This document shows, piece after piece, positions 1-10,800 of a stretch of DNA of 10,800 nucleotides (position 1 is its first letter; every line of letters starts with the position of its first letter). Source of the DNA: Candidatus Gracilibacteria bacterium CG2_30_37_12 (GTDB lineage Bacteria > Patescibacteriota > Gracilibacteria > BD1-5 > UBA2023); contig MNYO01000009.1 of the NCBI GenBank assembly GCA_001873165.1, positions 1 through 10,800 on the forward strand. The letters run 5' to 3'. Made by a program: the position numbers and the translations under genes. The notes below the pieces were generated by a model. It ran no database searches. It worked only from the letters and a program-made list of their open reading frames with translations, and was not told the origin of the DNA.

Positions 1-113
1 TCTACTTTTCCACCTGCACCATTCCATTTTCCTTCACCAAATCCTCGTTTTTTCATGGCGAGGAGAATTTGTTTTTTATCGTTGAATACAAATACGAGAG
101 TAGATTGACGCAT
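1..113 (-). CDS. NUDIX hydrolase, MutT/MTH1-like (N-terminal part; cut by window edge)
   Basis: The first 37 codons of a NUDIX hydrolase, starting at the ATG at 113 and leaving the window at base 1. The protein begins MRQSTLVFVFNDKKQILLAM and continues KKRGFGEGKWNGAGGKVE. The KKRGFGxGxWNGxGGK block is the substrate-pocket strand and the first Gly of the Nudix box in MTH1-type 8-oxo-dGTP diphosphatases. These enzymes hydrolyse oxidised purine nucleoside triphosphates to monophosphates and keep them out of DNA. The catalytic REUXEE part of the Nudix box lies beyond the edge, so activity cannot be judged. The gene starts 35 bases after the stop of the secreted-protein gene upstream, with no terminator between, so co-transcription is likely. 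No Shine-Dalgarno sequence is seen before the ATG. Family assignment is firm; the exact substrate is inference. Confidence 0.88.
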   Translation of the reverse strand, partial: MRQSTLVFVFNDKKQILLAMKKRGFGEGKWNGAGGKV

Positions 114-148
114 AAAGATGAAAATAAAAATATATGAATCTTAAAAAA

Positions 149-1450
149 TTAATGATAACTACAATTTCCTTTGTCACTCGCTTGTGCTTTACAAACTTTC
201 TCGGAAATCTTCACATAATCCGATACAAATGTATTAGTACTTTCGAGAAGTATATGTGTATCTATTAAATCTGCAACTGTTTGATCAGTAGTGGCATTTT
301 CCACCCCTATACGACTTTTTGCGTATTCGTAATCCTTCAAGATATCTGCATTAATTCCTGTTTCCAGAGTAATAATAGCACGGGAAGTTTCCATATATTT
401 ATCGGTTGATTGTGGTTGTGAAAGGAGTTTATCTCTGAGTCCTTCATATATTTTTGCAAATTGATCCCCTGCTTGATATACTCGTTCTCCAATAGAACTG
501 ACAAATCCAGTGACTCCTTCGGTGGTTTTTTCACCATTGTATATTGCAAGATTATTCATTATCGTTTGAGATCCTTTTGTATTCATTCCTTGATTAGAAA
601 GCTCAGTTCTGAGAGTGTTCCGTTCTGTTTCGGCATATTCTGGATTGGCACTATTGGAAGTCATAAGTGTGGAGGCTTTATCCCATTCTTTCATCCCATC
701 TCCTATACCTGCCCCGAGATCTCAAATACGAGTAAATGCCATTTTTATACTCTTCATAAAATCTGATTTCTGTTTACAATCATTTTGGGCTTTTGGACTA
801 TAATGCAGCTGGAGATTAGATCGAAAAGTTGCAGGATTTCAGACAAGTATGAAATCATATTTATTATCGGTTCTATCACCAAGAACGATCTCACGATAGA
901 AATTCATTATATCCACCTGATTTTTAAGCATATCCGTCAAAATTTTTCCAAATGTCTTATCTGTCGTAGTATATACGGTATCAGTCGATATGTTCGATGA
1001 TAAAGCAGTATTTTCCGCACATCGACCATGCACGATCTCGATCATACTATTGATGCGTTCGAGTTCTCTACCGAGTTGTTCATGATCTCGACTAATCCCT
1101 ACAGGAATCTCTGTTTTCAAAGCCATATCCACAAAGAAACGTCCCGAAGTTGCAAAGTTAGAAAAACCTACACGCTCGTTAACGGATCCCACGATTGTGG
1201 ATTGTGCTCTCTCAGCACTTGCCGAAGCGCTATTTCCTCCATCTGTACCGATACCGCATTGTACTTTAGATGTATCATCTCCGATTTTAGAAAGAAGAGC
1301 ATCGGCCGTTCGTAAATAGGTGATTAATTCTTCACTCATTCCATTATCCATAGTACAACCTTCCTCTCCAGCATATACCGAAGTGGCACAGAAAAAAGAT
1401 ACTATTATTGCAGTAAATATCTTACCAAGAGATGAAGAGAATATTTTCAT
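149..1450 (-). CDS. Secreted protein of unknown function (433 aa)
   Basis: Reads through two in-frame TGA codons (Gly204 at 839-841, Gly243 at 722-724) to a TAA at 149-151. The N-terminus, MKIFSSSLGKIFTAIIVSFF followed by CATSVYAGEE, is a signal peptide: basic start, hydrophobic core, and an AxA-type signal peptidase I site near residue 27. The mature part is polar, rich in Thr, Ser, Asp and Glu, and predicted mostly helical with long amphipathic stretches; no further membrane span is evident. A few Cys residues (CTMDN, QCGIG, GRCAEN, NDCKQ, KVCKA, GNCSYH) could form disulfides outside the cell. I recognise no catalytic motif or known family. It lies 26 bases downstream of another large secreted protein on the same strand and 35 bases upstream of a NUDIX gene. 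The paired exported proteins suggest a shared surface or periplasmic role, but this is inference. Confidence 0.85.
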
Positions 1451-1476
1451 AAAATTCTGAAAAATGGAGAAATATA

Positions 1477-3078
1477 TTATTTACTTTTTGGTATCTTATC
1501 GAGGGCAGTAATGGTCCCGGTGAGTTTTTCAAGAATATGCGTAAATGCCAGAGTAAATGCATGGAGCTCGAAAAGATCATCATTAAATGAATCTCCGTAA
1601 CTCTTCTTAAGTTCCATCTCTTTTGCCTGTATACATCCCGCTTTACTCGGAGTCTGTGTAGTGTTTGATTTTTCAGTAACGCTATTTGTAGTAAGATGCA
1701 CAAGATTTTGCACCATACGAGATTCGTCATTCTTTTCCAGAGAATTCTGACGCTTGAAATCGAGTCCTGATTCTTCGAAAGCACAAACGAGCGTTCGATT
1801 AAATTCATCACCATCATCCGCGGAAGAAGTTCCAGCATCTCATCCTGCACCTGCGGAACCCGATTCTTTTTTGAGATTCAAAAGTGGTGGTGGAAGAGAG
1901 GAAACCACCGCTCCTATATGGAGCATACTGGGAAGATTGAGATCCTTGAGAGAAAGTCCGAAAAAGAGATTTGTCATCTTGGCTTGTACTAAGCTCGATC
2001 CTGCGAAGGTATTGGCAATTTTGAGATTTTGATCGAGAATATACTCAATAGTATCCGTTTTCCCGCCGAGGATATTTTGACTATAGTCCATCATACTCAT
2101 AAGGATACAAAAAACATCTATTTTGGAACAAGGGAATTTGTCAGTTCCAGCACCTCCTCCACCAGGAGAATCACCAAGAGAGCCACTTCACTGAGCGATA
2201 TTTGCCCAGTATTCAGGAAGTTTTGCATCATCAGCAAAAGCAAGAGAAGAATTATTATTCCGTCCAACCAAGAGTTGTGCCTGTACATCGCGGAGGAAAT
2301 TTTGATCGAGATTTGCAGGAACTTGTGCAGAATTACCACACGTCACACAATTCGTCACAATCCCAGAAAGAGTCAATCCAGTAGAAGTACTTGGTGCTAT
2401 GAGCGAAACTCCGGGATCTTGGTAATTTGGCGATGTAAGAGTATCGAGTGGGAGAAGTGGATGTGGATAGATATTATTGAGAAGATTCGCAATGGAAGAT
2501 GCGCCCATATTACTTGTCCCGTTGTACGCGATATCTTTGGCAAAAATAATACGATGAATATTTTCCAGATCCACCATCAGATCATAACTGGAATTATCTT
2601 TATTACCATCAGAGAAAAGTCCTATAGATCCGACGGATTGCAGTTTTTTTTGTTCATAAGTTACACTATTCTGAATCTCTTGATAATGCTCTACGATAAT
2701 TCATCGTATTCGAACTATCTGCTCTACATTGAGTCAATTATTTTCTGGAACCATGTGGGTATAAATCGGACCAAGTGCTCATCCAACGATATCATCCAAT
2801 TCCGAAGTAGTAAAATCTACTCCAGCACGAAAGCAATCTATCTTGTTTTTATCTTTATCGGCACATATTTTCCCAACAAGTTTATTAATCTTGTTGTCCG
2901 TTACTCATTTCAGGCGATTTTCGATGAGTTGTGTTTTAAGTTTGTAACTCCCCTCATCGATACGTTTATAGATATTGTTTCCGAGATCCTCACCAACATA
3001 TTCCCCTGCTGCCCAAAGAATAATAGTTGGCAGAAAAGTGAAACAGATGAAGAGAAGAGTGAAAATACGAACTTTCAT
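1477..3078 (-). CDS. Large secreted protein of unknown function (533 aa)
   Basis: First gene of the leftmost operon. It is one continuous frame when TGA is read as Gly, with six such codons (residues 58, 100, 115, 126, 297, 413), ending in TAA at 1477-1479. I chose the ATG at 3078; a TTG ten codons upstream lies inside the predicted promoter. The N-terminus (MKVRIFTLLFICFTFLPTII then LWAAGEY) is a signal peptide or membrane anchor. The body is polar with a Gly-rich spacer near residues 297-315 (SGSLGDSPGGGGAG), a Pro-rich stretch (SSLPPPLLNLKKE) and paired Cys (NCVTCG, CSKIDVFC) that could form disulfides. No enzyme motif is visible. A long reading frame on the opposite strand overlaps it, but signal peptide, promoter and neighbour spacing favour this strand. 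Function unknown. Confidence 0.85.
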
Positions 3079-3107
3079 GAAAGGAAAACTATGAGTTATT
3101 TCCTGCA

Positions 3108-3136
3108 AGTATACCAGATAACAAAGGAAACAGCAA
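3108..3136 (-). promoter_or_regulatory. Sigma70-type promoter for the secreted-protein operon
   Basis: On the minus strand, a -35 box TTGCTG (3131-3136) is followed after exactly 17 bases by a -10 box TATACT (3108-3113). The predicted transcript starts near 3100, giving a leader of about 22 bases before the ATG at 3078. This placement supports the ATG start over the upstream TTG. Confidence 0.65.
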
Positions 3137-3166
3137 AAGAATATAGGGATATTTTTATAAAATGGT

Positions 3167-3194
3167 TTGACGAATGTTTAAAAATAAATATATT
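3167..3194 (+). promoter_or_regulatory. Sigma70-type promoter for the 70-aa protein gene
   Basis: Plus-strand TTGACG (3167-3172), 16 bases, then TATATT (3189-3194). The transcript would start near 3201, about 25 bases before the ATG at 3226. It diverges from the promoter at 3108-3136, so the two share the 147-base intergenic region. Confidence 0.65.
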
Positions 3195-3225
3195 ACATTT
3201 TTACTATCTAAAAATAAGGGTTTTT

Positions 3226-3438
3226 ATGGGAGGGAAAATTTCAGATTTTTGTCTATCTCCAGGGTTAATAGGATCTACATCTCAATGAGATTTCTGATAT
3301 ACTCCTTCACGAGCAGCAGAGATTGCAAGACAAGAATCGATCAAAAAGGCAAAAGAAGCAGAAGAGTTGAAACAACAGCAAATGACAGAAGCACGAAAAG
3401 CTCAGTTTCGTGTAATATTAGGCCTAAAAAAGTCATAA
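3226..3438 (+). CDS. Small charged helical protein (70 aa), unknown function
   Basis: An ATG at 3226 opens a frame that crosses two TGA codons (Gly21 at 3286-3288, Gly24 at 3295-3297) and ends in TAA at 3436-3438. The N-terminal third (GGKISDFCLSPGLIGSTSQ, then GDFGYTPS) looks loop-like. The C-terminal two thirds (SRAAEIARQESIKKAKEAEE onward) are a highly charged, Ala/Lys/Glu-rich helix, possibly coiled coil, ending in VILGLKKS. There is no signal peptide or membrane span, so it is probably cytoplasmic. AAGGG just before the start is the only Shine-Dalgarno-like sequence I see in the window. A good promoter upstream and a hairpin 10 bases after the stop make this a self-contained gene. With the standard code only 20 codons remain, so it would be missed. 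No family recognised. Confidence 0.72.
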
Positions 3439-3447
3439 TTCATCTTC

Positions 3448-3482
3448 ACTATAAATCCCCCGAATTTCGGGGGATTTATAGT
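3448..3482. terminator. Bidirectional hairpin between convergent genes
   Basis: Perfect 15-bp inverted repeat: ACTATAAATCCCCCG (3448-3462) pairs with CGGGGGATTTATAGT (3468-3482) around the loop AATTT. It lies 10 bases after the stop of the 70-aa gene and 2 bases after the clpC stop (TAA, 3485-3487), so it can end transcription from both sides. The GC core is followed by an AU-rich arm in each direction rather than a pure T tract. Confidence 0.85.
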
Positions 3483-3484
3483 AA

Positions 3485-6028
3485 TTATTTCACGATGAGT
3501 TTTCATTTCAATGCACTGACAGTAACGGTAGCATCTTTCTTCCCTTGAATAATACGATCAGCAATCGTATCTTCGATATTATCTTGGATATATCGTCTGA
3601 CAGGACGCGCTCCAAACTCCGGATTATACGTTTCTTTAAGAATAAGAGAAACAGCTTTTGTATTAAATTCTAAGTGTATATTCATTTCCAAAAGACGAGT
3701 TTTCAATATATCGAGCTGAAGAACGATGATTTTCTTGAGAATAGTCTTGTCGAGCGGGTTAAATATCACAACACGGTCGATACGATTGAGGAATTCTGGA
3801 GAGAAATATTCATCCAAACCATCGATTACTTTTGCCTTAATCTTGGCATAATCCCGGATGATTTTCGCTTCTGTATCAGAAGAAACATCAAACCCAATCT
3901 GAGATGCCTTGGAAGTGAATTCTTCTCCTCCAATATTGGAAGTCATGATAACAATCGTATTTTTGAAATTAATTTTTCGCCCTTTTCCATCGGTCAAAGT
4001 TCCATCTTCAAGAACTTGCAGAAGGAGGTTAAATACTTCGAAACTTCCCTTTTCAATCTCATCGAACAGTACGATAGAATACGGTTTTCTACGAACTCGT
4101 TCCGTCAACATTCCACCTTCTTCATAACCAACATATCCAGCCGTTGTACCGATGAGTTTCGATGCAGAAGATCGTTCATTGTATTCAGACATATCGAGCT
4201 TAATCAATGCTTTTTCATCACCGAAGAATTCAAGAGCGAGTTGCTTCACGAGTTCTGTCTTCCCGACTCCTGTCGGCCCGAGAAAGAGAAAACTTCCAAT
4301 AGGTCGATTTCGATTACTGATCCCAGTACGATTTCGTTTAATAGCACTCACGATGGATGAAATAGCCTCATTCTGCCCGATAATATTTCGTTCCAAATTC
4401 TTCTGGAGAGATTGAAGTTTTTTCATATCTTCTGTGGCGATATTTTTTGCAGGCACTCCAGTGATTCGTTCTATTATTTTCTGAACATCATCCGAAGTAA
4501 TATGCATACGTTTCTCTCGAGGAATAACTTTCTTTGCCTTTTTTTCCTGAATCTTTTGCTCTATATTGTTTTGTTTTTCTTTAATCTTGATGGCTTTATG
4601 ATACTGACCAGAAAGTACATAATCCTCGATTTCTTTCTGAAGTTTTTCGATATCCTGTTTCAGGGTTTTTACCTCTGTTTCAGGTCCATTGTATTTCATA
4701 CTTTTCGCACTACATGCTTCATCGATAAGATCAATCGCTTTATCGGGCAAATACCGATCTGTCACATATCGAATAGATAGTCGAACTGCATCGGTAATAG
4801 CATCGTCGTCAATAATCAAATTATGAAACTCTTCAAAAGAATTACGAAGTCCTGATATAATCTCAATCGCTACTTCTTCCTTTGGCTCATCCACATCTAT
4901 CTTCTGAAATCGACGTTCGAGTGCAGAATCTTTTTCAATATATTTTTGGTACTCGTTGAGCGTCGTAGCTCCGATAATACATACTTTCCCACGACCCATT
5001 GCAGGCTTCAAAATATTTGCAGCGTCGAGTGTTCATTCTGCTGATCCTGCTCAAATAATCGTATGAATCTCATCAATAAAAAGTACTACTTCATTTTCCA
5101 TCTTGGATGCCTCTTCGATAATCTGTTTGAGTCGAGCTTCAAACTCTCCACGATACTTCGTTCCTGCCACCATTCCAGAAAGATCCAGACTAACAATTCG
5201 TTTGTTCTGCATAGCCAATGGGACCTTTCCTTGTGCGATACGAAGTGCGAGACCTTCAACAACGGCGGTTTTACCAACTCCTGGTTCTCCGACGAGACAA
5301 GGATTATTTTTCGTCTTACGATTGAGTACTGATATAAGTCGTTCTATTTCCATATCTCGACCGATAATAGCATCGATTTTCCCTTCATGTGCTTCTTCCG
5401 TCAGATCGGTACCAAAGAAATCGAGAGCAGGTGTGAGACTCTCTGATTTTTTTCATTCTTGTTTTTTGTTTCCTGCAAAGGGATCTGCCATTTCTCCTTC
5501 TCCAAAACCACCAGTGAGGCCCTCTTCTATCGCATGGAGGATATTATCCAAAGGTCCAAACATCGTACTGTCACCATTTTTCACAATCGATGCATTCAAA
5601 TTTTTAAGATCTTGTTCTATGTCTTTCGGGGAAAGTCCGATAAAATCAAAAAATTGATAAAACCAAGTTTCTGTATTAGCACGAAAAATCGCCAAGAGAA
5701 AATCCTCTACTCCAGCTTTTTGTTTCTCGGCTCCTGCTGCTATTTTCATACTCAATACGATGAGTTCTTTGAGACGGGAAGAAAGTCCTTTGTATGAACC
5801 CGCCCGTCCAGCATCCGAGAGATTAAATGGGGATCTTGAGAGAACCTCATTCGCTATTTTAAGATTGACTCCAGAGCTGGCGTAGAGTTCATAAATCGGT
5901 CCTGTTTTAATATCGAGAGAACGTAAGAATACATCCTCTGGAAGGATTTCAGAAAAACCTTTGGATTTAATAACATTTTCCGTTTCAAGCATCAAATTTT
6001 TGTATTCTTCGGTGAAATTGGTGTACAT
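3485..6028 (-). CDS. clpC: ClpC/ClpA-type AAA+ unfoldase (847 aa)
   Basis: An ATP-driven unfoldase that feeds proteins to ClpP in the cytoplasm. Order: divergent Clp N-domain (about residues 1-150); first AAA+ module with Walker A GEPGVGKT (247-254), Walker B VVLFIDE (314-320) and ALERRF Arg residues (369-374); a short helical linker with a UVR-like stretch (about 450-500); second module with Walker A GPTGVGKT (584-591), Walker B VLFDE (to 657) and sensor-2 GAR (806-808). The linker is far shorter than the ClpB middle domain, and an IGF tripeptide (711-713) sits where ClpA/ClpC carry the ClpP-docking loop, so this is ClpC-like, not the disaggregase ClpB. Four TGA codons encode Gly192, 326, 332 and 842; 326 and 332 are conserved family glycines. 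TAA stop at 3485. The C-terminal GKLIVK tail follows the last TGA. The pseudouridine synthase gene lies upstream on the same strand. Confidence 0.95.
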
Positions 6029-6060
6029 GAATGAAGATAAGATATGAGATATTTGGAAGT

Positions 6061-6066
6061 ATTATA
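6061..6066 (-). promoter_or_regulatory. Candidate -10 element upstream of clpC
   Basis: A perfect minus-strand TATAAT 32 bases upstream of the clpC ATG, within the 77-base gap after the pseudouridine synthase gene. No convincing -35 box is seen at 16-18 bases. It would give a leader of about 26 bases, so clpC may have its own promoter besides read-through. No CIRCE- or CtsR-like operator is evident. Confidence 0.45.
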
Positions 6067-6105
6067 TGAATTTCTCTCAAAAATAAAAGAGGAAGATGGA
6101 AATCT

Positions 6106-7068
6106 TTATTTTTCCAATAGTTTCTCCATATCTTCTTTGAGTTTTGCCGTATATGTTTCCGGAGTTTTTTTGCTCGGATGGAGAAAACTAATACAACTCG
6201 CATGGAGGAGTTGTCTCCCGATTCCATACATTCTTTTAGTAAAAGCATTTTCTTGTTTATCTCCATAGGTATTATCACCAAGGATCGGGCATCCAAGTGA
6301 GGCAAGATGCACACGAATCTGATGCATTCGTCCTGTTTCGAGAATGCATTCTATGAGACTATATTTCCCATGAATTCCTATTTGAAGCACTCGATAATGA
6401 GTAATTGCTGTCTGACCATTTTCATCATCGATTACGACTTTATTTTCTCGCTCCGCATGCTCGAGCCGTCGAAGTTTTTTCCGAATAATACCACGGGTTT
6501 CTGGAGGAGTTCCAAGGCAAATCGCTAGATATATTTTCTCTATTTTACCCGATTGAAGTGCACTCAACATAACATCGAGTGTAGGTTTATTCTTGGCAAT
6601 CATCACAATTCCCGAAGTATCTTTATCGATTCTATGGATAAGGGACGGTTTAAAAGTTAAAGAATGTAATTTGTCCCCCAGATAATCTTGAACCTGGGCA
6701 ATAAGAGAAAGATTGGTTGTTTTAAAATCTCCAGGATGGACGATGACTCCTGGATTTTTATTCACAATCAATAGATCATTATCCTCATAGACGATGTCTT
6801 GAGGATTCAATCTATCATCATCTCGTTTGTGTAAGAGAGGTTTCTGTACTTTTGTGAGAATCTCGTATTCTTCGTCTTTTATAAAAAGCTCAATACTCTC
6901 GCCTTCTTGGATAATATATTCATTATCTTTTCGTTTTCTATCTACCTTTACATTATTTTTGCGATTCAGCTTATATATGAAACTAAGTGGTGCATGAGGA
7001 AGAAGTTTCTTGAGAAATTTATCCAATCGCTGATTGGCATCATTGGAAGTTATAGTGAATTGTTTCAT
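6106..7068 (-). CDS. RluC/RluD-family 23S rRNA pseudouridine synthase (320 aa)
   Basis: Converts specific uridines of large-subunit rRNA to pseudouridine. Residues 1 to about 75 form an S4 RNA-binding domain (NQRLDKFLKKLLPHAPLSFI). The catalytic domain follows: EDNDLLIVNKNPGVIVHPG (about 95-113), the active-site motif HRIDKDTSG (145-153) with catalytic Asp148, and the third family motif GRMHQIRVHLASLGCPILGD. The length matches E. coli RluC (319) and RluD (326). Met replaces the usual Thr in GRTHQIR, a mild change. The Arg of GRMHQIR is encoded by CGA, so CGA is read as Arg here. There is no in-frame TGA in the gene, so it reads the same under the standard code. The target uridine cannot be told from sequence alone; RluC, RluD or RluA-like are all possible. 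Confidence 0.93.
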   Translation of the reverse strand: MKQFTITSNDANQRLDKFLKKLLPHAPLSFIYKLNRKNNVKVDRKRKDNEYIIQEGESIELFIKDEEYEILTKVQKPLLHKRDDDRLNPQDIVYEDNDLLIVNKNPGVIVHPGDFKTTNLSLIAQVQDYLGDKLHSLTFKPSLIHRIDKDTSGIVMIAKNKPTLDVMLSALQSGKIEKIYLAICLGTPPETRGIIRKKLRRLEHAERENKVVIDDENGQTAITHYRVLQIGIHGKYSLIECILETGRMHQIRVHLASLGCPILGDNTYGDKQENAFTKRMYGIGRQLLHASCISFLHPSKKTPETYTAKLKEDMEKLLEK

Positions 7069-7076
7069 GAGAATGA

Positions 7077-7082
7077 ATTATA
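7077..7082 (-). promoter_or_regulatory. -10 element almost at the rluC/D-like start codon
   Basis: A perfect TATAAT on the minus strand ends 8 bases before the ATG at 7068. If used, transcription starts about 2 bases before the ATG, giving a leaderless mRNA. No clear -35 box is present. The alternative is a more distant promoter with the structured region 7121-7189 in the leader. Confidence 0.4.
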
Positions 7083-7097
7083 ATTGAAAGAAATATG

Positions 7098-7111
7098 AAA
7101 GAAATTTCTTT
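7098..7111. repeat. Perfect 14-bp palindrome upstream of the pseudouridine synthase
   Basis: AAAGAAATTTCTTT is a perfect palindrome starting 30 bases upstream of the ATG, just upstream of the -10 element. It could be an operator for a dimeric regulator. In AT-rich DNA such a palindrome can also occur by chance. Confidence 0.4.
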
Positions 7112-7120
7112 AAAGTGATC

Positions 7121-7189
7121 ACACGGCCTTGATAAATCTTTTATAAGGTCCGGTGACATGTGAAATTTGTATGAAAACCGTGTACCGGA
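7121..7189. other. Structured intergenic region with mutually exclusive stems
   Basis: Most of the 195-base gap between the PilX-like gene and the pseudouridine synthase gene. Stem A: GGCCTT-ATAAA (7125-7136, one bulge) with TTTAT-AAGG-CC (7140-7151, one bulge), loop TCT. Stem B: TCCGGT-ACA (7149-7158, one bulged G) with TGTACCGGA (7181-7189). Stem C: ACACGG (7121-7126) with CCGTGT (7178-7183), which competes with both for shared bases. A T tract does not follow either arm, so it is not a simple terminator. It could be a leader element of the minus-strand pseudouridine synthase gene or a small RNA; I recognise no known riboswitch. The rest of the gap (7190-7263) shows only a short GAAC/GTTC repeat (7233-7246). 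Confidence 0.5.
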
Positions 7190-7263
7190 ATGAATCATAC
7201 GACTGTACGAAGAATGAGGAAATGTAAAAGTTTGAACATAAAGTTCGCATTTTAAAGAGGTTT

Positions 7264-8115
7264 CTATTGGAAGACAGTAAAATCAAGAGCCTCATTGGTG
7301 GTCATTTGCTGAATGAAATGCGTGATATTTTTACGGAATCCTCAGGCATACCCCTGTGTTTCTATAACGGCAGTCTGGAGTGGGATTGGTTCGTCAAATA
7401 TTGCCTGATATTCGATATATGGTACCACTTCTCCCGTAGTCAACAAAAGAGGATTTATGAGGGAAAGTTTCAAAGTACAAACAATTGGACTTACGCATTT
7501 TGTTGTATAAAAACTCCCAAATGTGCTGTTTATACCAGCCAATGTCATACCAGGAGTAGTGTTCAAAGAAATATTTGTACTATTAATAGCGCTTGCTCTA
7601 ATCTGACTCCCACTCGCTTGCAGAGATTCACCACTCGCTGAAAGTGTCCAGTTAATAATCGGAGTAGTTCCTCAGGAAAGTACTTGTGGCACGCCAAGAT
7701 TCGGAACTCGAAAGATGAAATATGATAAGCTCCAATCTATCGGGGTATTATTTTTCAATAAAAGTTGTACTGGTTTTCCTGGAGCAAGAATGCTCCAATT
7801 TGGATCATATTCACTATTTCCTTTTCCTAGTTGTGGAAGCGTTATTCCATTGGCTGTTACACTATATATCATCCCCGATCCATTCGAGAGCGTATTGCCT
7901 GATGGTTCGAGACTTGGATTACCTCCTGACATTGAAAGTAGTGCTTCATTGAGTGCAGTATTTGCTCGATAATAGGAGATATTTCCATTTTCCACCCCTT
8001 TAATATCTTGCGCAAAAGGGACAATTTTCTCCAAAAGATAAATCGCTATGATAATAATAATTATCGTAACAAACATACTAATAATAAGAGCGGATCATTT
8101 CGTATTATTTTTCAT
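7264..8115 (-). CDS. PilX-like type IV minor pilin (283 aa)
   Basis: Begins MKNNTKGSALIISMFVTIII, continuing into a hydrophobic helix to about residue 27. A short basic leader, Gly7, then a G-x-A-L-I-type hydrophobic segment without Glu at +5 is the pattern of the PilX N-terminal domain, a minor pilin involved in type IV pilus assembly. Cleavage would follow Gly7. That Gly is encoded by TGA (8095-8097), as are Gly148 (7672-7674) and Gly258 (7342-7344). The mature domain is Ser/Asn/Gly/Thr-rich, as expected for an exposed beta-rich pilin head, and ends ALDFTVFQ before TAG at 7264-7266. It starts 25 bases after the prepilin gene on the same strand, echoing the pilW-pilX order of minor pilin operons. 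The overall family is likely; the precise equivalent of PilX is inference. Confidence 0.8.
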
Positions 8116-8140
8116 GGAACTCTATATGAAATACTAAAAA

Positions 8141-9280
8141 TTATTTCGAAAGATTAACAGTGGTTGCGATGGTCATATCGGCTGCTGGACCTTTGATTTT
8201 CTTGCGTTTTTCCCAAGCCAGACCAATGGTCATATGTATGCGTACATATGAATTCAATAAAATCGCAGGATCAGATTCTTTCCAAGCATAGCGAAAATCT
8301 TTTTCTGGATAGAGAAAGAAATCTACATTTTTTACATTAATCCATGGCGGAAATATATTCACCCACTCAGTATCTATTCAGGCAGAGAGATTATTTGCCC
8401 CAGTGCAATTATAATCTGGATGACATTCCCATGTATCGATAATACCATCGTATTTCCCTACAGAAGGCATTGATCAAGAATGGCTCAATCCTAAATCTTT
8501 CCCGATGAGTTTCAACATCTGAATATTTCCGAGACAATTTCCACTTCCCATATTGATTCCCGACATTTCACAAAGAGCATTTGGCGGACCATTGGGATCT
8601 GTTTGAATTATCCATCTAAAATAGATTCTCTCGGATTGCGTTCATTTTTTTATGAGATAAAGTTCTTTCATACCAACCCCACCAGTGAAAGCACTTGGTC
8701 CCATTCCGAGGTCTTCATCATCATCATCGCCACGAATATTTCCATCGGCATTTTCATCTCCTCCATCAGCATTTGCATTGGAATTATAATCGATAAATTG
8801 CTGGCGATATTGCCCATATCTTTGAGGATGAAGAGATACATCAGAAGCGTATGTATTAAATCCTGTCAAACAACCTCTGGTTCCCATTTTCGGTCCATTT
8901 CCACTGATACAGTAATACAATCCATCTCCATAATTTGCCGAAGCACCACCACTTCCATAATTTCCAAAACCAGAAAATACAGCATAGTGTCCAGAAGAAG
9001 TCGTCGTTCCTACGGCTTGTCTATTCCAATATTCTTCATAGTTGATATCTCCTCCTGTTTTAATGAGATTGACAAATTTTTCTGTCACACTATAGAGCTC
9101 ATTATTCAAATCGAGTCGATTCGTTACACTGTTTCGAAGTATCCCAATATTTCCCATCGCAGAAAATGCCATGATAATAATCATAGCAAAAATCGTAATA
9201 GATACAATCATCTCAACAAGTGTGAAAGCTCTCGAATTCTCTGAACTTTTCTTCAAAATGTTTTTTATGGAAAACTTCAT
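8141..9280 (-). CDS. Type IV prepilin, PilW/FimT-like minor pilin (379 aa)
   Basis: Start ATG at 9280 (a TTG four codons upstream is less likely). An 18-residue basic leader ends in ENSRA, followed by FTLVEMIVSITIFAMIII: the prepilin peptidase signature with Glu at +5 of the mature protein (residue 23) and a hydrophobic assembly helix. Ala rather than Gly stands at -1, which the peptidase tolerates in some prepilins. Three TGA codons encode Gly213, 269 and 301; the stop is TAA at 8141-8143. Residues about 164-190 are an Asp/Asn/Gly-rich run (NANADGGDENADGNIRGDDD) resembling calcium-binding loops. Several Cys follow (YYCIS, GCLTG, LCNGS, YDCPH, WECH), so disulfides are possible. At 379 residues it is much longer than a major pilin, so a minor or pseudopilin role is favoured, consistent with the PilX-like gene 25 bases downstream. 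Confidence 0.87.
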
Positions 9281-9306
9281 ATTTTCTAACAACTAAGAAT
9301 TAAAGA

Positions 9307-9597
9307 TTATTTCTTTTTGGGAGAGAAATATTGTTCTTTTTTGAAAATATAATGGAGAAATGTTCCGATACTTCGACCAATTTTTACACCAGAAGGAGCT
9401 TTCCAAAAGGACTTCGGACCAATGTGAAAAAAGAAGTTCATCATATCCAGAAATCTATTTTCCTGCAAAGGCTTTGCTTCTTTTCCAACGAGATTTCGTA
9501 TAAAAAGACCAAAGCTCTGTCCAAGTGATACAAGAAAATATTTTATGAGATTAAGGAGAATGAAAAACGTATTTTCCTGGAGTCTTTTCTTTCGCAT
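9307..9597 (-). CDS. Small basic membrane-associated protein (96 aa), unknown function
   Basis: First frame of the pilus cluster, from ATG 9597 to TAA 9307-9309. Upstream the frame is closed by a TAA at 9610-9612, which limits the start. The protein is very basic. A hydrophobic segment near residues 11-33 (FFILLNLIKYFLVSLGQSFG) is followed by a Lys/Phe/Gly-rich half (FFHIGPKSFWKAPSGVKIGR) and the tail YFSPKKK. It may be a one-span membrane protein. It has no TGA codon and no recognised family. The stop lies 26 bases before the prepilin start on the same strand, so co-transcription is likely, and the context suggests a link to pilus assembly or the cell surface. It could still be a chance frame, though its position fills an otherwise empty operon slot. 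Confidence 0.6.
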   Translation of the reverse strand: MRKKRLQENTFFILLNLIKYFLVSLGQSFGLFIRNLVGKEAKPLQENRFLDMMNFFFHIGPKSFWKAPSGVKIGRSIGTFLHYIFKKEQYFSPKKK

Positions 9598-9621
9598 AGC
9601 GGGAGGATTTTATGAGACAAA

Positions 9622-9650
9622 TAAATAATTTATGAGATTGTCCTTTACAA
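9622..9650 (-). promoter_or_regulatory. Possible promoter for the pilus cluster
   Basis: Minus-strand TTGTAA (9645-9650), 17 bases, TATTTA (9622-9627). The start would be near 9615, about 18 bases before the ATG at 9597. Both boxes are weak matches. The -35 overlaps the candidate -35 of the divergent plus-strand promoter, so the two may compete. Confidence 0.35.
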
Positions 9651-9670
9651 AAACAAGATTTTCCTATAAT
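9644..9670 (+). promoter_or_regulatory. Possible promoter for the four-helix membrane protein
   Basis: A perfect TATAAT at 9665-9670 on the plus strand, with TTTACA at 9644-9649 as a -35 at a short 15-base spacing. The start would be near 9677, about 31 bases before the ATG at 9708. The -10 is convincing; the -35 is uncertain. Confidence 0.5.
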
Positions 9671-9707
9671 CAAAATACATTTTACCAAACTATCACCATT
9701 TACCTGT

Positions 9708-10328
9708 ATGGATTATATCGGAAATTCAAAAAATCGGAAACTAAAAAATAAAATACGGCACCTCTTTGTGCATATGAGTTTCAATTTCCTCCACCTTTCT
9801 GGAAGCGCTCGAATTATTTCGGTTGGTATCTTTCTCTCTTTTGTCTCGCTTTTTCTCAACTGGTTCTCGATTATTGATACTCCACTTTCGGGAAATGCTT
9901 TTAGTATCAATGTCTGATATGTTGGATATATTATCATCCTTATCAACAGTGTTCTTTGTTTTCTCTTGCTTGCCGACACGAGCAAGGAGAAACTTAAAAC
10001 CAAAGCTTCTCTTCCATTCTCAGATCACACCATTATTATAGTTTCTGGGATTACACTTTTTCTTCTCACACTCGTTATCTTCAACTCGGTTCGTGGCTTC
10101 GTGCTCTTTTATCCAAATATCGTTATAGGAAATGGGATAATCTTCCAATGTATCGGATCTATATTTATCACTCTCGGAGGACTCCTCTCTTATCACAGAA
10201 AAAAACAAGAATTTTTGAGTACTATGTATGTGGAAAATACTGGAGCAGATGATTCCCTCTTTGCCGAGTACGAAGATATCCTCGGGAAAAATAAAAGAGA
10301 TAAGGAAAATATGACTCTACCTCTCTAG
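9708..10328 (+). CDS. Four-helix inner-membrane protein of unknown function (206 aa)
   Basis: From ATG 9708 through one TGA (Gly70, 9915-9917) to TAG 10326-10328. A basic 30-residue N-terminus precedes four hydrophobic segments at about 34-56, 70-89, 108-126 and 137-161, separated by short loops. The loop after helix 2 is Lys-rich (DTSKEKLKTKASLPF) and so probably cytoplasmic, which fits an inside N-terminus by the positive-inside rule. The charged C-terminal tail (HRKKQEFLS, then an acidic stretch, then GKNKRDKENMTLPL) is also probably cytoplasmic. TGA at residue 70 falls in VGYVGY, at the start of helix 2. No enzyme or transporter motif is recognised. It is divergent from the pilus cluster and followed by a clear terminator, so it is a single-gene unit. 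Confidence 0.8.
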
Positions 10329-10351
10329 AAAGTTCTCTGAAAAAGTGAAAG

Positions 10352-10373
10352 CCCCTCGCGAAAGGGGATTTTT
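10352..10373 (+). terminator. Rho-independent terminator after the membrane protein gene
   Basis: CCCCT (10352-10356) pairs with AGGGG (10363-10367) around the loop CGCGAA, followed by ATTTTT. It lies 23 bases after the stop codon. Confidence 0.8.
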
Positions 10374-10462
10374 GAAGCAGACAGATTACCATTTATTTGT
10401 TGGCAACCTTAATATACTTTGTCGAACAGCGAGATAAAGACATCCACTATTGACTCTGGTTG

Positions 10463-10510
10463 AAATGTTCGGCTTATACAAGCCTACGGTCTCAAACGAG
10501 CCGAACATTT
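10463..10510. repeat. 12-bp perfect inverted repeat with a 24-base loop
   Basis: AAATGTTCGGCT (10463-10474) and AGCCGAACATTT (10499-10510) are exact reverse complements. On the plus strand the right arm is followed by AGGTTTTTGTTT, so this could also be a weak terminator. It is taken as the main stem of the candidate RNA. Confidence 0.85.
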
Positions 10511-10522
10511 AGGTTTTTGTTT

Positions 10523-10557
10523 GTCCACACGGTTTTTTGTGTGGGACTCTTTTTTTT
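10523..10557 (+). terminator. Strong rho-independent terminator with T8 tract
   Basis: GTCCACAC (10523-10530) pairs with GTGTGGGAC (10539-10547, one bulged G) around a GGTTTTTT loop. TCT then merges into a run of eight T (10550-10557). The T tract follows the hairpin only on the plus strand, which sets the direction of the upstream transcript. Confidence 0.82.
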
Positions 10558-10604
10558 GCTCCCGGACCGAAGGAATTAACTCAATTCCACCCATTTTTTC
10601 TCAC

Positions 10605-10800
10605 CTAACCAACCGTAAAAAGCCTTTGTTGTACTGAGTCTAACGGATTTCTATTGATGTGTTTTCTTGGATCCTTTTTAGGTCGTTTGTAGAGTTGTTC
10701 CAGACAGTGAGAGATGAAGGTAATAATGGAGTTACGATTCATCGTAAGTCCGAGTCTCCGTGTAAATTTTTCAAACTTCTTGGTAAACTCTTTTCCGACT
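10605..10800 (-). CDS. Possible C-terminal end of an unknown protein (runs off right edge)
   Basis: A minus-strand frame enters from the right edge and stays open for 65 codons to a TAG at 10605-10607. Its translation is basic and helical (GKEFTKKFEKFTRRLG, then LTMNRNSIITFISHCLEQLY, KRPKKDPRKHINRNPLDSVQ, ending QRLFTVG). There is no TGA in it. The composition resembles a nucleic-acid-binding protein or transposase tail, but I recognise no family motif. Another minus-strand frame is nearly as open if TGA is read as Gly, so this choice rests on residue composition. The gene would be convergent with the candidate RNA. Between them, 10558-10604 holds only a GGAATT/AATTCC hairpin (10572-10588). 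Confidence 0.4.
   Translation of the reverse strand, partial: VGKEFTKKFEKFTRRLGLTMNRNSIITFISHCLEQLYKRPKKDPRKHINRNPLDSVQQRLFTVG

Follow-up and report, generated by a model that had tools for sequence, protein, structure and literature searches.

The window, by which we mean the whole stretch of DNA that was analysed (10,800 nucleotides), comprises bases 1-10800 of a contig in a 946-kb draft genome (134 contigs, 90.5% complete, 0.42% contamination). The main gene under study is that for a ClpC-like AAA+ ATPase at 3485..6028 on the minus strand, encoding 847 aa under NCBI translation table 25, with four in-frame TGA codons and a TAA end. Among the Pfam domains matched are AAA_2, AAA_lid_9 and ClpB_D2-small. 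Matches to ClpB and ClpA in NCBIfam stay below the equivalog cut-offs, and the best relatives of solved structure carry the name ClpC. The five ClpC loci closest to that of the window, with 86 to 90% identity, bear the title Candidatus Gracilibacteria, and from the titles of these best loci the source organism, an uncultured bacterium, is placed in the Gracilibacteria (BD1-5, Patescibacteria/CPR).

Also on the minus strand are genes for proteins of 433 aa (149..1450; TGA at 839-841 and 722-724) and 543 aa (1477..3108; six TGA). Both are probably secreted, judging the N-termini by eye, and neither has a Pfam or NCBIfam family match at E 0.01. These two genes (together 149-3108) are neighbours of clpC both here and in seven relatives, and their products diverge fast, with 23 to 62% identity among relatives versus 66 to 90% for ClpC. 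The same strand carries genes for an RluA-family pseudouridine synthase (6106..7068; 320 aa, zero TGA), for a 283-aa protein with a hydrophobic N-terminal stretch seen by eye (7264..8115; three TGA, TAG end) for which the family search gave no match, and for a type IV pilin-like protein of 383 aa (8141..9292; N_methyl, PF07963; three TGA). On the plus strand a 238-aa longest frame at 9612..10328, judged by eye to encode a membrane protein, has TGA codons at 9633-9635 and 9915-9917, the former of which probably precedes the true start. Rfam and tRNA scans of the window found nothing.

The frames of the window are uninterrupted by TAA or TAG. The preliminary description had counted 21 in-frame TGA codons; there are 20 in the longest frames, or 19 if the starts are trimmed by codon usage. 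It had also spoken of six gene sets besides clpC that are joined by reading through TGA, where we find five other genes with TGA (the RluA gene and a 96-aa frame have none). Its expectation that standard gene calling would fragment genes is borne out, in that table 11 splits the clpC gene into pieces of 191, 100 and 502 aa.

Within the clpC gene two TGA codons had been placed at conserved glycines following Walker B. Both are present, in frame on the minus strand, as residues 326 (5051..5053) and 332 (5033..5035), and the proposed continuous 847-aa ATPase with TGA read as glycine is indeed an intact frame terminated by TAA. In standard-code proteins residue 326 is Gly in 20/20 aligned rows, and residue 332 is Gly in 17/20 (with Asp in two and Ser in one). 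The other lineage rows have TGA or GGN at each of these two sites in 24/24 cases. In ClpC chains of solved structure the motif HTII-x-AGSAE-x-TLDAAN pairs with HTLVGAGGAEGAIDASN and HTLIGAGGAEGAIDASN, and both x positions (the TGA codons, read as X) face G in all three alignments shown. The proposal that every TGA column of ClpC be scored for glycine gives a positive result at these two sites and at residue 842 of 847 (3503..3505, minus strand), where 11 of the 14 aligned standard-code rows have Gly. Although near the terminus, this last TGA is internal. The fourth, residue 192 (5453..5455, minus strand), lies in a variable linker, where the six closest relatives have TGA (three) or GGG (three).

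For a broader comparison the ClpC genes of 25 lineage rows (the window plus L024-L047, one of which, L029, is titled just 'uncultured bacterium') were aligned with 20 standard-code rows; the two sets together comprise the window and 44 of the 80 matched loci. In-frame TGA is absent from all 20 standard-code rows. Across the 25 lineage genes TGA occurs in 109 columns, of which 63 can be scored. The commonest standard residue in the 63 is G in 36, followed by K (7), A (6), S (4), E (3), H (3), M (2), Q (1) and V (1). If we restrict the comparison to TGA columns that are at least 90% conserved in the standard-code rows, 34 remain, of which 29 are G, two A, two H and one S. Glycine accounts for 30 of the 237 conserved columns overall (there is no conserved Trp or Cys column), so that 29 of 34 is more than would be expected by chance (hypergeometric P = 6e-31 for at least 29). 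Counted by cell, 242 of 262 TGA in the conserved columns lie opposite G, 17 opposite A, two opposite H and one opposite S, and in the close clade of seven members (the window, L024-L028 and L031) the figure is 14/14 G. Two Ala columns and one His column of ClpC also hold GGN codons; assuming that these are the Ala and His columns that bear TGA, this fits true replacement by glycine at those positions. ClpC genes of the lineage have between 1 and 52 TGA codons, with the clade of the window at the low end (3 to 13; the window has 4).

Exchange between TGA and glycine codons was followed in the ten closest loci for three genes of the window, clpC and the adjoining 433-aa and 543-aa genes. No match to the pilin-like and membrane genes, with their eight TGA, was found in those loci, and the counts refer to the three matched genes. 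At the 12 TGA sites of the window the relatives provide 89 non-gap cells, in which GGN occurs 45 times and TGA 15 times; the others are K (6), T, S and E (4 each), Q (3), V, N and A (2 each), D (1) and P (1). Viewed from the other side, the 140 TGA cells of the relatives lie opposite GGN of the window in 95 cases, TGA in 15 and TGG in one.

We extended the analysis to 17 further stretches of the same genome (~131 kb), with genes picked by codon usage and TGA kept neutral. With the window included this gave 94 called genes and 33,011 codons, containing 183 TGA spread over 59 of the 94 genes, prfA and dnaE among them. Alongside GGA (1166), GGT (475), GGG (333) and GGC (74), UGA would be a minor glycine codon (183 of 2231, ~8%). 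The called genes end in TAA (68) or TAG (26), as the gene caller itself assumed that TGA is not a stop. The three TGA codons of the RF1 gene all lie opposite G in both references shown. The correspondence is less complete elsewhere, and some TGA codons opposite other residues count against UGA as glycine. In the GuaB1-family gene five of ten TGA are opposite G in the first alignment (read by eye), the others facing V, P, A, K and A. The single TGA of rpoC is opposite Ala (37/37 standard rows), and among the alignment positions shown for DnaE one TGA is opposite Ala and another opposite a gap. For PBP1A the two references disagree at one TGA (S versus G), the remainder being weakly aligned or outside the alignment shown. 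We note that rpoC, a long conserved gene, has just one TGA in this genome, and that the adjoining rpoB-like ORF has none.

A plus-strand ORF obtained by longest-ORF calling (L121:11653-15189) was dropped as antisense, there being a better-scoring TGA-free ORF of 1177 aa on the other strand that is taken for rpoB from its size and its position beside rpoC. The antisense ORF gave misleading TGA columns (R, S, T, C and one G), and also a CGG opposite Trp. Conserved TGA columns of these further genes are G in four of eight with this ORF and, counting by hand, in three of four without it, the fourth being the Ala of RpoC. Antisense ORFs likewise inflate the coverage by longest ORFs (82%, versus 63%).

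Loss of RF2 (prfB) had been suggested as a check. A search of the draft genome with PF00472 gave one match. This sole class-I release factor scores 457 bits against the RF1 cut-off of 423 (TIGR00019) and 269 bits against the RF2 cut-off of 370 (TIGR00020), i.e. above the threshold for prfA and below that for prfB. No prfB was found by profile search of this draft, which is 90.5% complete, and it is likely that prfB has been lost and prfA retained in this genome. The seven relatives G001-G007 likewise have a single PF00472 match apiece. A Companilactobacillus control has two matches, but a Dojkabacteria genome (G008, locus L102) has one, where a standard-code bacterium would be expected to have two. 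The RF2 model matches 53 of 59 genomes of the order (that of the window included), and exceeds its cut-off in one, G067; the matches below the cut-off are taken for cross-matches to prfA. G067, with this prfB at L188 (C153:10080-11129), is a 2.7-Mb bin of 500 contigs that has in addition a second release-factor match, with 16 TGA, and for these reasons it is probably a mixed bin. Six of the 59 drafts have no match at all, a reminder that drafts lose genes.

The other check, for a tRNA-Gly gene with a UCA anticodon, gave a different outcome. None was found in the draft using the Rfam tRNA model, three patterns (one of them so stringent that its negative result carries no information) and a DNA search with a 3-kb query that lacked a positive control. 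The Rfam model recovers the UCA tRNA in G001 and G006 (43.0 and 45.4 bits), and so would probably have found one in the draft of the window. The tRNA is present in 50 of the 58 other genomes of the order, five of six of the same genus among them. With the genome of the window counted as a miss the figure is 50 of 59, and for genomes of good quality 43 of 45; the misses among the 59 are the genome of the window and G011, G017, G027, G029, G030, G032, G034 and G035. It occurs in all seven of the relatives G001-G007, which from shared coordinates are seven of those 58.

Other genes too were not found in the draft. It has 22 tRNAs over cut-off, versus 36 in G001 and 34 in G006, and at least six amino acids (Ala, Asn, Asp, Lys, Pro, Val) are unrepresented among the tRNAs found. 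Nor was uvrC found, either in a search with controls or in a separate DNA search without a positive control. In G001 the UCA tRNA lies between a pseudouridine-synthase/ndk region and tRNA-Arg(GCG) plus uvrC, and uvrC is within 3 kb of the UCA tRNA in three of the four genomes of the genus that have uvrC (G012, G014 and G015); in the fourth, G010, the two are on different contigs. With the pseudouridine synthase neighbouring the tRNA as query, the draft yields just the 32% identical paralogue of the window itself. The uvrC search also missed G011 and G013, though G013 has the UCA tRNA. G017 of the same family (93% complete) has uvrC and no match to the UCA tRNA pattern. Since the draft shows no tRNAs for at least six amino acids and no uvrC, an assembly gap at the locus is the most likely reason for the missing UCA tRNA, although this is not proved, and we do not count the missing gene as evidence of true absence.

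In the relatives the acceptor end of the UCA tRNA is G1:C72, C2:G71, G3:C70 and U73, with an encoded CCA, in 17/17 read; the same acceptor-end criteria were used for glycine identity in PMC8629427. Decoding in the organism of the window would then follow from its relatives. UGA would be read by a tRNA-Gly with anticodon UCA, the gene seen in those genomes, and the normal glycyl-tRNA synthetase would charge it via the acceptor end. Termination would occur at UAA and UAG only, both recognised by RF1, and UGA would have no competitor in the absence of RF2. We conclude that the window almost certainly derives from a Gracilibacteria draft using table 25, in which UGA encodes glycine, as the preliminary description had it; the conserved columns, the TGA/GGN exchange, the sole prfA, the UCA tRNA of the relatives and the Gracilibacteria-titled ClpC loci all support this.

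The fragmentation of genes by standard calling, together with the UCA tRNA not found in the draft, is what would be expected if UGA were a stop and the genes pseudogenes, frameshifted or affected by sequencing errors. Two species filed as Gracilibacteria are indeed reported to have RF2, no UCA tRNA and UGA as stop (PMC8629427). The genome of the window is unlike these, as RF2 was not found either, leaving no prfB to read UGA. Moreover the frames are free of TAA and TAG, TGA or GGN occurs at the same sites in independent assemblies, and in-frame TGA is found in 59 of the 94 called genes, including such genes as prfA and dnaE. A stop is thus extremely improbable. To an equally extreme degree it is improbable that UGA encodes tryptophan (table 4), as in Mycoplasma. 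Bacterial species reported to have reassigned UGA to Trp outnumber those with UGA as Gly (PMC8629427), and the Trp reassignment likewise accompanies RF2 loss (PMC4695839). Yet of the 262 conserved TGA cells 242 are in Gly columns, and the TGA of relatives faces TGG of the window in just one of 140 cells, against 95 for GGN. The tRNA-Trp that was found has anticodon CCA, while the UCA tRNAs of relatives have glycine acceptor ends. As none of the conserved columns in the ClpC set is Trp, the case against tryptophan rests on the positive match to glycine. The position of TGA in Gly columns also leads us to reject selenocysteine, with the limit that the set has no conserved Cys column either. ARAGORN labels the tRNA of the relatives SeC, owing to its UCA anticodon; however, its length of 79 bases and its 7-bp acceptor stem count against this label, as does the occurrence of UGA in 59 of the 94 called genes. 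The probability of this assignment is vanishingly small.

A second change in addition to table 25, by which CGG and/or CGA would become Trp, has reported precedent in sister lineages, both codons being predicted to encode Trp in Absconditabacteria, and CGG alone in some Gracilibacteria (PMC8629427). The one CGG seen opposite Trp lies inside the dropped antisense ORF. Of the conserved ClpC cells of the close clade, 11/14 with CGG and 27/29 with CGA lie in Arg columns, the rest falling in one Glu column. Where the window has CGG, its relatives have Arg in 32 of 44 cells and Trp in none, and a tRNA-Arg(UCG) is present in the genome. Such a change is therefore very unlikely here; without a conserved Trp column in ClpC the Trp side is weakly tested, so that the use of these codons for Arg is better established than the exclusion of rare use for Trp.

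Table 25 with UGA as glycine is thus the reading that we retain, and it is known and ordinary for this lineage, to which the window adds a further example. A sense role for UGA was predicted there in 2012-2013, and glycine was established by proteomics in 2014 (PMC4032931, PMC6851277, PMC8629427, PMC11452946). Proteomics of another BD1-5 population gave 97 unique peptides with UGA as Gly, three with UGA as Trp and none with stop (PMC4032931). The BD1-5 genomes available at the time were reported to have lost prfB and retained prfA (PMC6851277), and code 25 has been called a trademark of the lineage (PMC11452946). The window shares with the table 25 Gracilibacteria UGA as Gly, prfA without prfB and, in near relatives, a UCA tRNA of glycine identity. 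Nothing of substance differs; UGA is rarer in ClpC of this clade (3 to 13) than in that of many other Gracilibacteria (up to 52), and the UCA tRNA was not found in this draft. UGA as glycine is common to the Absconditabacteria (SR1), in which CGA and CGG are further predicted to encode Trp (PMC8629427); in the clade of the window both are in Arg columns. The table 4 codes of Mycoplasma and insect symbionts share a sense UGA and the loss of RF2 (PMC4695839), but differ in the amino acid and the tRNA. The practical point is that table 11 would fragment genes of this contig; for the lineage, code 25 is the setting used in gene calling (PMC4032931, PMC6851277, PMC8629427, PMC11452946).

The placement of CGA and CGG in Arg columns of the clade is a small addition, and a second is an odd D-loop in the UCA tRNA of the relatives, which is of interest for decoding. 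By a crude test (GG within bases 14-24, with overlapping loci counted repeatedly) the D-loop GG is missing in 18/18 UCA-tRNA rows and present in 134/134 other tRNA rows. The 18 rows (L105, L107-L110, L112, L115 and L178-L187, with the tRNA at 1466-1544 or 1486-1564) represent 17 genomes, one presumably read twice through L137. The missing GG is not described in the extracts of the literature searched, a set to which Campbell 2013 and Rinke 2013 do not belong; PMC8629427 does mention, in general terms, that tRNAs with unusual D-loops were left unassigned. We raise tentatively, from sequence comparison, the doubtful possibility that this tRNA-Gly(UCA) is structurally odd rather than a mere anticodon variant of tRNA-Gly(UCC), and that the missing GG may tune it to read UGA while not misreading the Trp codon UGG. 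In the ARAGORN drawing the anticodon stem of this UCA tRNA has a sixth pair. The tRNA-Trp(CCA) of the genome of the window (L017:295-369, minus strand) has by eye a 5-bp anticodon stem, and a stem of this length is expected for tRNA-Trp(CCA) where UGA encodes glycine (PMC13092985).
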